From Tumebacillus lacus (GTDB lineage Bacteria > Bacillota > Bacilli > Tumebacillales > Tumebacillaceae): 64,000 nt of DNA. The stretch spans positions 310,001 through 374,000 of the forward strand of contig NZ_JAPMLT010000003.1 in NCBI RefSeq assembly GCF_026410385.1, in the 5' to 3' direction. The notes under the pieces were generated by a model. That model did no database searches. It was given only the letters and a program-made list of their open reading frames with translations, and was not told where the DNA came from. Of this stretch, positions 10,321-33,931 are shown piece by piece (positions within the stretch are counted from its first letter, which is position 1; every line of letters begins with the position of its first letter). Made by a program: the position numbers and the translations under genes.

Positions 10321-10364
10321 ACGAGACAGATCGAGGCTGAGTGTTTCAGTACTTTTGCTCAGTC

Positions 10365-10462
10365 AGGTCACTTCCTCACGCCGGTATTACCCAGGATCGA
10401 GTTCGGAGGGTTAGCGTTCTTTACGCTTCTCAGCCTGCAAAAGGCACCCCTAGCGACTGCGG
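10365..10462 (-). ncRNA. TPP riboswitch (THI element)
   Basis: The minus strand carries the conserved THI-box parts in order: CTAGGGGTGCC, then GGCTGAGA, ACCCTCCGAA, and CTGGGTAATACCGGCGTGAGGAAG. These are the pyrimidine- and pyrophosphate-sensing arms of the TPP aptamer. It precedes ykoEDC and is followed by a terminator, so it should turn the operon off when thiamine pyrophosphate is plentiful. Confidence 0.92.
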
Positions 10463-31094: not shown

Positions 31095-31571
31095 TTAGTC
31101 GATTGCAAAGATCAGTTCGCCCTCTTTATCAAAGAAACCCTCGCCGTCCGCTTGCAGCGTACCGTCTGTCGCGTCGAGCAGCAGTTCCAGCAGGTACTCG
31201 ACCAGTTCCCAGCCTTCTTCGGTAAAGTCGTCCGGGATCATGCAGGCGATGATCTGTTCCGTCTCCGAGAGCAGCTTATCGACGACGGCGCGGCCTTCGT
31301 CTTGCCCTTCGACAGCTTGCATGGCGGTGCGGAACTCTTCGATCTCCTCTGCAAAGTCTTCGGCGCCGCTGACGGAGCGGTCGACCATGACGGATGGACG
31401 GCGATCTTCATAAGAAAGATGCACCGTTTTCCAGTCCGGGTCTTGATAACGCGGATCGTCTTTGGCCGGGAAGATTTTCAGTTCGAAGCCGATGTGTTCG
31501 ATCTTATCGACCAGGTGCGGAATGGTCGGGGCTTCTTGAGTCCGACAAAACACGCGCATAAAATGTGCCAT
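31095..31571 (-). CDS. Hypothetical protein, 158 aa
   Basis: An acidic soluble protein. It begins MAHFMRVFCRT and contains SYEDRRPSVMVDRSVSGAEDF. The ATG at 31571 has AAAGGGGA upstream. No membrane span, repeat or catalytic motif is seen. The gene lies directly upstream of the rRNA methyltransferase gene, 45 bases away, and is probably co-transcribed with it. The C-terminal half (YLLELLLDATDGTLQADGEG) looks like a small globular regulatory domain. Function unknown. Confidence 0.72.
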   Translation of the reverse strand: MAHFMRVFCRTQEAPTIPHLVDKIEHIGFELKIFPAKDDPRYQDPDWKTVHLSYEDRRPSVMVDRSVSGAEDFAEEIEEFRTAMQAVEGQDEGRAVVDKLLSETEQIIACMIPDDFTEEGWELVEYLLELLLDATDGTLQADGEGFFDKEGELIFAID

Positions 31572-31716
31572 GATGATGTCCCCTTTTTTCAACCTTTGTC
31601 AAATCATAGCATAACCATTTCCCATCCTATCATATCTCGACATTTATTTCCCGGGAAACCGAATCTTGTCAGGAATGGGCGTAAAGATCAGAGTGGTTTG
31701 TCGTATGTTGGGTGGT

Positions 31717-31795
31717 GGGAGGGGGGAGCAGTATCTACGGAAAACCGCTAGCTTCGCAGACAAAGGTCTTTCCTCCGATACTCCTCCCCCCTCCC
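31717..31795. repeat. Structured hairpin element 1 (inverted relative to 2 and 3)
   Basis: Outer arms of 19 bases (GGGAGGGGGGAG.AGTATC) pair with one mismatch. An asymmetric internal loop and an inner stem (GGAAA-A-CC / GG-T-TTTCC) enclose the 18-base loop shared with elements 2 and 3 on the opposite strand. The stem sequence is unlike theirs. Confidence 0.75.
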
Positions 31796-31833
31796 ATCGC
31801 TTGTCAGGCACAAAACGACAACCACCTTTACAA

Positions 31834-31950
31834 CGACAGAAGGCCGGGGGAGTCCCGGAGGTTTGCCTTTGTCTGCGTAGCTAGCGGCAAACCGCAGGGA
31901 CTCCCCCGGCCTTCGGGCACCCACCGAGCGTCAACCCACCCGGCACCCCA
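31834..31950. repeat. 117-base direct repeat, copy 1, containing hairpin element 2
   Basis: Differs from copy 2 (31991-32107) at only about three positions. It holds the hairpin 31839-31914: an 18-base outer stem (GAAGGCCGGGGGAGTCCC and its complement), GGA/GCA internal loop, 8-base inner stem GGTTTGCC/GGCAAACC and 18-base apical loop TTTGTCTGCGTAGCTAGC. Its right end duplicates the last codons of the hydroxylase gene. Confidence 0.9.
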
Positions 31951-31990
31951 CCATCCTCTAAATCCTGTGCATCCAACTACCACCAGTCAC

Positions 31991-32107
31991 CGACAGAAGG
32001 CCGGGGGAGTCCCGGAGGTTTGCCTTTGTCTGCGAAGCTAGCGGCAAACCGCAGGGACTCCCCCGGCCTTCGGGCACCCAACGAGCGTCAACCCGCCCGG
32101 CACCCCA
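31991..32107. repeat. 117-base direct repeat, copy 2, containing hairpin element 3
   Basis: Holds the hairpin 31996-32071 with the same outer stem, internal loop and inner stem as copy 1 and the loop TTTGTCTGCGAAGCTAGC. The right end overlaps the last residues and stop of the hydroxylase gene. No T-run follows the hairpin, so it is not a standard intrinsic terminator. Confidence 0.9.
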
Positions 32108-33866
32108 CTCTCATCAATTTCATCCCGTTCTCAATCAACGCTCCCTTCTCCTCATCACTCTCACCTGCACGCACCAACTGCGCCTCCACTCTCTCCTGCA
32201 ACTCACGCTCAACACCCCGCGCAGTCAAGATCTCCAAAATCTCCACCCGCAACAACCAATCCTCCGCAAACTCCGCTTCGATCTGTTGCAGCACATCTGC
32301 CAGCGAATCGATCAACTGCCCGTCAGACAGCTCTCCCTCGCGCAAGTCCCGCACCGCTGTGTACAGCCGATGCAAAGCTCGCTCCTCTTCCGAAAGAACA
32401 GCCTTCCCGGTCACCGTAGCCGACACAGCCACCGCCGACGCGTGAAACCGCTCCGGATCGGCAGCCCCGGCAAACACCGAGACGATCTTCGCCCCGACCG
32501 CCATGTCAAACGTTCCCCACTCCGCGCGGAACAACACCGTCTCACCGAGCGTCACCGTGCAGCGATTGAACGCGATCAACACGATCTTGCCGCCGCGACG
32601 AACCACCTCTTTCACGATGCCTTCGACTCTCACCCCGGATCGGAACTTCACGTTTGCCTTGCATCCTGCCACGATCCCGGCCCGTTGCAACAACAGATCG
32701 GAGAAGTCTTCCAACGGTGTGCTGTAGCCCTGCAACAGCCCAACCGGCGAGCCAAACCCTTCCCCGTGGTACACCTGATCATGTCCCGGCAACTCTTGAT
32801 CCGCATACGCCAACGCCGACGACCCCGTGGTTTTCAGGTAGACCGCTTCCCCCTGCTCATCGAACACGAGATCGGTAAACGTCCCCGTCACCTGCAACCC
32901 CGACGCATACACCGCCGTCGCCGTCGCACCGGAATCGACCGCTTTCACAAGGCTTTGCGTCCCGCCGACACGGAACGCCATCCCCGCCGCAAATCGCTCA
33001 ATCGCCTCCGTCAACTGATCAAAATCCCGACACACAAACAACTGCGGCTGCGGCTTCGTGATGTCGTAGTCGGTCGCGATGCACGCCTCCAGCGAGAACG
33101 GAATCTTCCGCACCGCCGGTGCCAAACAGCTCCGGCTCTCCCCCATCGACGACAACAACCCCGCCCCGTAAATCTTCGGATCTTCGAGGTCGCCGATCAG
33201 CCCGTATTCCACCGTCCACCAGTACAGCCGCGCCAACAACGTCGCCTCCGAAGAAGACGTCACCGCCGCAATCGCCGCATCCAACCGCCGCTCCGAAGCG
33301 GCGATCTGCTCGTCTGTCGCCTTCGGATCTTCTTTCAAAATCGACAACAGCCGAATCGCTTCATAGACCTCAAGGTCCTCTTTCGAAGACAAAGCCTTGC
33401 GCCCGATCTCACCGAACCGCCGCAAAAACCGCCCGTATGCCTCATCATGCAGCATCGGAGCATGCCCTGCCGATTCGTGGATGATGTCCGGGGCCGGCGT
33501 GTACGCGATATGAGCCAGAGTGCGCATGTCACAGGCGATCGGCAAGATCCCATGCGCCTGAAAATCAAAAAACGCCACAGGCGGGATAAACCCGTCGACG
33601 GCGACCGCTCCCCAACCCATCGCGGACAGCTCGGCACTCATCGTCGTGATATCAGGAATCGACTCAATCGACATCCCGGTGGAAAGCAACCCGTCCCGGT
33701 AGGAGCCATAGCCCTTTTCCTGAAGAAACGCGCTGTTTTGGCGCAGCACATAACGCCACACCGCCTGGTCGACCGGCGTGTACTTCGCATAGTGCTGATC
33801 CACCACAAACTGTCGCAAATGGGCAGGGACGGCAGGCCCCTGAGTCGTCAGAGTCGTTGTACTCAT
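32088..33866 (-). CDS. Aromatic amino acid hydroxylase (phenylalanine 4-monooxygenase family)
   Basis: About 592 residues, the long form known from Bacilli. The catalytic domain is N-terminal (about 10-300). The iron-binding facial triad appears as HESAGHAPMLHDE (two His, about 127-132) and a downstream Glu in the WWTVEYGLIGD segment. IYGAGLLSSMGES is also characteristic. The enzyme uses tetrahydrobiopterin and O2 to hydroxylate phenylalanine or another aromatic residue. The C-terminal 280 residues are an extra domain of unknown role. AGGAGAG precedes the ATG. The stop lies inside a 117-base repeat. Substrate is not certain. Confidence 0.88.
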   Translation of the reverse strand: MSTTTLTTQGPAVPAHLRQFVVDQHYAKYTPVDQAVWRYVLRQNSAFLQEKGYGSYRDGLLSTGMSIESIPDITTMSAELSAMGWGAVAVDGFIPPVAFFDFQAHGILPIACDMRTLAHIAYTPAPDIIHESAGHAPMLHDEAYGRFLRRFGEIGRKALSSKEDLEVYEAIRLLSILKEDPKATDEQIAASERRLDAAIAAVTSSSEATLLARLYWWTVEYGLIGDLEDPKIYGAGLLSSMGESRSCLAPAVRKIPFSLEACIATDYDITKPQPQLFVCRDFDQLTEAIERFAAGMAFRVGGTQSLVKAVDSGATATAVYASGLQVTGTFTDLVFDEQGEAVYLKTTGSSALAYADQELPGHDQVYHGEGFGSPVGLLQGYSTPLEDFSDLLLQRAGIVAGCKANVKFRSGVRVEGIVKEVVRRGGKIVLIAFNRCTVTLGETVLFRAEWGTFDMAVGAKIVSVFAGAADPERFHASAVAVSATVTGKAVLSEEERALHRLYTAVRDLREGELSDGQLIDSLADVLQQIEAEFAEDWLLRVEILEILTARGVERELQERVEAQLVRAGESDEEKGALIENGMKLMRVGCRAG

Positions 33867-33901
33867 CTCTTTTTCTCTCCTCTCCCGCATTGGGTGCTTT
33901 A

Positions 33902-33931
33902 GCACATAAAAGCATATGTGCATAAAAGCAT
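33902..33931. promoter_or_regulatory. Candidate operator upstream of the hydroxylase gene
   Basis: Two exact copies of CATAAAAGCAT start 16 bases apart (33905 and 33921). The first overlaps a palindrome GCACATA-N6-TATGTGC (33902-33921). They lie 36-65 bases before the start codon. Confidence 0.5.

Follow-up and report, generated by a model that had tools for sequence, protein, structure and literature searches.

Three long hairpins with a common loop and mutually compensated stems at one intergenic site in Tumebacillus lacus: a lineage-specific cluster possibly kept palindromic by fold-back copying

The window considered here, 64,000 nucleotides of the Tumebacillus lacus genome (contig NZ_JAPMLT010000003.1, positions 310,001 to 374,000), has near its center an intergenic block of hairpins, E1, E2 and E3, flanked by two minus-strand genes in a housekeeping neighborhood (Table 1). 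The gene upstream of the hairpins in the direction of transcription specifies a biopterin-dependent aromatic amino acid hydroxylase that has orthologues in six relatives, G001-G006, and the one downstream a protein of 165 amino acids. In G004-G006, which belong to a sister genus, these two genes adjoin one another and an ordinary terminator separates them; in G001-G003, the other three congeneric genomes searched, the hydroxylase gene is again followed by an ordinary terminator, and the gene for the 165-amino acid protein was not found. The terminator of the relatives at this place has the form GACCAG...CTGGTC followed by a T-run. No terminator-like site is present between 31500 and 32200 of the T. 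lacus window, and the ancestral hydroxylase terminator is absent from 31593-32087. A further stretch, GGGTCTCCCGACCCC, which in G001-G003 (L013, L014, L015) is conserved 3' of the hydroxylase gene and 5' of its terminator, is also absent here. Since the relatives carry an ordinary terminator and no hairpins in the same intergenic region, the block looks lineage-specific and is most simply regarded as a gain in the lineage leading to T. lacus.

Table 1. Features of the hairpin locus and its surroundings (window coordinates)
Feature	Position	Strand	Remarks
TPP riboswitch	10356-10461	minus	Rfam RF00059, 63.8 bits
Gene for 165-amino acid protein	31095-31592	minus	no Pfam match; adjoins hydroxylase gene in G004-G006
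E1 3' flank	31688-31716	minus	resembles the E2 and E3 tails (CACCCAAC...CG.CAA.CC)
Hairpin E1	31717-31795	minus	outer stem of 12 + 6 pairs flanking one G.G mismatch
GCGAAGC in E1 loop	31751-31757	minus	d(GC-GNA-GC) DNA mini-hairpin sequence
Hairpin E2	31839-31914	plus	perfect outer stem of 18 pairs
GCGTAGC in E2 loop	31875-31881	plus	d(GC-GNA-GC) mini-hairpin sequence
E2 unit, 3' tail	31915-31958	plus	within repeat unit 31831-31958
Hairpin E3	31996-32071	plus	as E2 except for A in place of T in the loop
GCGAAGC in E3 loop	32032-32038	plus	d(GC-GNA-GC) mini-hairpin sequence
E3 unit, 3' tail	32072-32115	plus	overlaps end of minus-strand hydroxylase gene
Gene for aromatic amino acid hydroxylase (phenylalanine hydroxylase type)	32088-33923	minus	Pfam PF00351, E 2.5e-26

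The three hairpins are real and unusual. Each is 76-79 nt long, and their calculated RNA folding energies are -50.2 (E1), -59.0 (E2) and -60.2 kcal/mol (E3), with z values of -7.0, -9.0 and -8.0 respectively and none of 200 shuffles as good; with DNA parameters the folding is also strong (z = -6.2 for E1 and -8.9 for E2). The positions and orientations given for them in the initial annotation are borne out, the folds being 7-9 standard deviations better than those of shuffled sequences, as are the 18-base loop and the GGA versus GCA/GTA internal loop said there to be shared by all three. Common to the set is GGA-GG....CC-TTTGTCTGCG[A/T]AGCTAGC-GG....CC-G[C/T]A, that is the loop, both ends of the inner stem and the internal loop, with the middle of the inner stem differing between E1 and E2/E3. 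In E2 the internal loop is GGA/GCA, the 8-pair inner stem is perfect and the variable position of the 18-nt loop is T; in E1 the internal loop is GGA/GTA, and the inner stem, for which eight pairs had been correctly proposed in every copy, has in addition one bulged G. The internal loop can be read in all three as G.A, G-Y, A.G, where the C/T difference would retain a possible G-C or G-U pair. The window contains precisely three occurrences of TTTGTCTGCG[A/T]AGCTAGC, against an expectation of 0.07 even with three mismatches allowed.

How did one site come to have three of them? E2 and E3 are directly repeated and E1 is inverted relative to E2, all at one locus. The units 31831-31958 and 31988-32115 are 95% identical over 128 bp, so that the simple tandem duplication that would have disposed of the initial proposal does account for two of the three copies (E2 and E3). 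The 3' flank of E1 shares its likeness (CACCCAAC...CG.CAA.CC) to the E2 and E3 tails to a degree that none of 500 shuffles equaled over 30 nt, and since the likeness extends 3' of the hairpin, the unit of repetition exceeds the hairpin itself. On the 5' side the flank is common to E2 and E3, and the similarity of E1 to it is not significant; the homology of what lies outside the E2 and E3 units is borderline (p about 0.05). The duplication reaches into coding sequence: the T. lacus hydroxylase ends ...LKLMRVGCRAG, a few residues later than its counterparts in relatives, and the extra codons (VGCRAG and the stop) lie within the E3 tail, at 32088-32115, with a near copy in the E2 tail.

The family is an orphan, with three copies at one locus in one species. 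The exact loop occurs three times in the whole genome, always here, and two covariance models, one of the whole hairpin (R1) and one of the core only (R2, designed to catch members with unrelated outer stems), matched only E1-E3 in that genome. R1 treats the column pair 12/68 as unpaired where 13/67 was meant; as these columns vary little or not at all, the result is unaffected. There was no convincing match to R1 and R2 in 40 relatives, to R1 in about 398 genomes sampled from the class, or to R1 and R2 in about 398 sampled from the phylum, and so the further copies with covarying stems that had been anticipated in the genome and its relatives did not come to light. The class and phylum searches, about 800 genomes, were sampled and filtered, and distant members may escape them. 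An R2 match in one phylum genome, G516 (per-genome E of 0.005, 398 genomes searched), has the core without the expected hairpin and is at chance level. Plasmids and phages gave no match to the hairpins. In Rfam no family exceeds its gathering threshold at the hairpins, with only sub-threshold hairpin-like matches when E values up to 10 are admitted; the TPP riboswitch is the only Rfam family in the window. Exact loop matches in two IMG/VR contigs (L001, L002) and in a Zixiibacteriota contig of the GTDB genome collection (L006), and a near-core match (L011), all have the stems absent and are attributed to chance; a further core pattern had 0 matches in IMG/VR, and none of 34 looser IMG/VR matches was matched by a covariance model. 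In a screen for long hairpins across about 1.26 Mb of the genome, window included, most others of comparable strength are terminator-like with A/T-rich ends, the two exceptions being on another contig and of different sequence. Separately, another local hairpin pair is present at 15090-15208 of L110 (G000:C1, about 575090-575208, G000 being T. lacus): its two members are short, almost identical to each other (CAAACAACCACACC...GGTGTGGTTGTTTG), separated by about 80 bp and without a clear terminator T-run.

A hairpin repeat of the REP/REPIN or IS200/IS605-derived kind, moved by a Y1 transposase, was one of the possibilities raised initially. The inverted E1/E2 pair with its short spacer is REPIN-like, and a conserved loop on a stem interrupted by mismatches is in keeping with such elements, as REP/REPIN and IS200/IS605 end hairpins (PMC8266576) are likewise imperfect, have conserved unpaired features and can occur as two inverted copies. 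However, dispersed copies are lacking, with just three at a single locus, and a search of the genome (95.7% complete) for PF01797, the Y1 transposase, gave no match while controls were positive, so that the transposase of IS200/REP type that had been suggested as worth seeking was not detected. The immediate flanks (CGAT/CGACA on the 5' side, ACCACCC/GGGCACCC on the 3' side) have no GTAG tetranucleotide at the foot of the hairpin, and at 76-79 nt, versus 29-37 nt for E. coli REPs, the elements are twice the length. We regard mobilization of this type as very improbable. Other bacterial stem-loop repeat families (PMC2267715) are similarly intergenic with a common secondary structure, but those were found as repeats within genomes, whereas the present set is confined to a single site, with three copies, and the searches turned up no relatives. 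A retron or group II intron RNA was also considered and set aside, there being no reverse transcriptase (PF00078) match in the 95.7% complete genome.

The location, directly after the hydroxylase stop codon and where relatives have GACCAG...CTGGTC and a T-run and T. lacus has nothing terminator-like between the genes, raises the question of whether the hairpins replaced the ancestral terminator and act at the 3' end of the hydroxylase mRNA, blocking readthrough or 3' exonucleases, a role for which any strong stem would suffice. It would not, however, conserve the loop sequence, and a T-run is absent after every hairpin, which also disqualifies them as intrinsic terminators, for these need it directly 3' of the stem. 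The alignment of the E1 inner hairpin with the terminator of G006 is outdone by only 2 of 466 terminators, yet this is marginal given that six relatives were tested, and the similarity is absent in the same-genus G001 and G003; derivation of E1 from the ancestral terminator was rejected on that account. A 3'-end function for the cluster seems to us distinctly unlikely.

More instructive are the differences between the stems. In the alignment of E1-E3 there are 27 pairs, with 98.7% of cells paired. Comparison of E1 with E2/E3 gives nine pairs in which both partners differ, no pair in which just one does, and a single mismatch (the G.G of E1). The number of changes that preserve pairing was not matched in any of 500 shuffles, and it falls to 0-3 pairs when the partner is shifted by 1-3 columns. 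Compensation in the stems is therefore beyond chance. It is distributed over both stems: in the outer one 12 of 19 pairs are invariant, six compensated and one mismatched (in E1), so that describing the outer stem of E1 as fully different was an overstatement; in the inner one three of eight pairs are compensated, in accord with the covariation proposed for it. Since E2 and E3 are the products of one duplication, the covariation is that of a single independent comparison, E1 versus E2/E3.

Compensation of this sort had been taken to indicate selection on structure. Though the compensation is real, such selection is not required, since template switching during replication can yield multi-base compensatory changes in one event, fixing the stem and retaining the loop (PMC8794818). 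The two-sided changes here proceed in no instance via G-U, and many are adjacent transversions (TTT/AAA to AAA/TTT, CC/GG to GG/CC). Stepwise compensatory evolution of RNA is commonly held to go through G-U intermediates (as stated in PMC8794818); the changes at this locus alter several bases on both sides, keep pairing and loop, and have neither one-sided nor G-U intermediates, which fits template switching. The hairpins analyzed by Monttinen and Loytynoja in 2022 (PMC8794818) likewise have perfect stems and block-wise two-sided changes without G-U, with the loop retained, but those are in rRNA and microRNA genes with reconstructed histories while the present case is a bacterial intergenic cluster without an ancestral sequence. 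The same authors describe as circumstantial their own evidence that short stems are maintained. They also report that exceptionally stable loop motifs are enriched among the hairpins affected by template switching.

Such a motif is present in every loop. The sole loop difference among the three copies, the A/T (T in E2), falls exactly on the free N of GNA in GCGNAGC, and, judged by sequence, each of the three has a GNA loop closed by two G-C pairs. DNA GNA loops with at least two G-C pairs are exceptionally stable, the GCGAAGC fragment melting at 78°C (PMC4686876). The connection was made post hoc: GCGNAGC occurs 529 times in 1.2 Mb, about once per 2.3 kb, and its chance of being in an 18-nt loop is near 0.5%. 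The RNA reading of the same stretch is a GCGA tetraloop of the GNRA type, which would be lost in E2 (GCGT). The absence of G-U intermediates, the GNA motif in every loop and the loss in E2 of the GNRA reading together favor a DNA-level hairpin and fold-back copying. The d(GCGNAGC) mini-hairpins (PMC4686876) and the promoter hairpins of phage N4 virion RNA polymerase (PMC4496689) share GC-GNA-GC with the loops here, but in T. lacus the motif is inside the 18-nt loop of a 76-79 nt hairpin, and, unlike the N4 case, there is no phage polymerase or promoter context.

That a DNA hairpin loop with a sheared G:A pair is recognized by proteins such as the N4 virion RNA polymerase (PMC4496689), and that ssoA origins fold into large structures where RNA polymerase does the priming (PMC5703833), gives some rationale for considering a long hairpin with a conserved loop to be a remnant of a rolling-circle element, namely of its single-strand origin or a comparable initiation site in folded ssDNA. 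The lack of a plasmid or phage match, the housekeeping neighborhood and the three near-copies on a chromosome all run counter to this, and we give it very little credence.

What we tentatively prefer, at a little under an even chance, is that this is a locally duplicated, lineage-specific cluster of DNA hairpins whose arms have been kept complementary by fold-back (template-switch) copying. The E1-E2 relation would be an inverted duplication and that of E2 to E3 a direct one, both arising from local replication events at the one intergenic site. Each hairpin would be a substrate for fold-back DNA synthesis: after mutation of one arm, a nascent strand could fold back at the tip and recopy that arm from the other, the outcome being alteration of several bases on both sides at once with the loop kept, and the GC-GNA-GC mini-hairpin may be a suitable nucleus for priming of this kind. 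The hairpins with their compensated differences, the duplication, the confinement to one lineage-specific site and the failure to detect mobilizing genes are observations; template switching as the cause, the involvement of GCGNAGC and the absence of a separate cellular function are what we infer from the pattern. A bolder version, on which we are considerably more doubtful, has the hairpin as self-maintaining, with its GCGNAGC tip nucleating fold-back synthesis in vivo such that palindrome and loop are preserved and local spread occurs without a transposase.

Copying between arms is not the whole story. Between E1 and E3 the loop has 0 of 18 positions changed and the stems 10 of 26 pairs (Fisher p = 0.003), and for the conservation of the loop, the GGA/GYA internal loop and the GG....CC ends p is 0.003 to 0.005. 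Template switching alone would leave these features unprotected from point mutation, which hints at recognition or some other constraint, unless loss of the tip entails loss of correction as well, in which case arm copying would explain their conservation too. That the loop changes far less than the stems still favors selection. In one form of it, a protein or ligand would bind the 18-nt loop and the GGA/GYA internal loop, in folded ssDNA or RNA, with loop and pairing selected and stem sequence free. The unequal rates of change just described, the possible G-C or G-U pair that survives the C/T difference, and the inner stem with its conserved ends and variable middle are as this would have them. 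Against it, there is but one independent comparison; no relative is found in the about 800 class and phylum genomes, the 40 near relatives, Rfam, phages or plasmids; and with copies in both orientations a single transcript would read E1 in the sense opposite to E2/E3. We consider a recognized element a serious rival, if on balance rather unlikely. The opposite orientations and the lack of the hairpins in any relative count against the RNA motif of the initial annotation without refuting it; the interpretation given there, taken as a whole, is partly supported, the mobile repeat in itself not being so.

Where paired bases change together, it is customary to take this as proof that a structure, in RNA or DNA, is under selection. 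Here there are nine compensated pairs and no detectable family, and for those nine pairs arm-to-arm copying is an equally good or better explanation than selected structure. Should the GCGNAGC tip really be what drives arm copying, this locus would offer a natural test of how a hairpin preserves its palindrome; should the loop be recognized instead, the locus would mark an unknown binding element.
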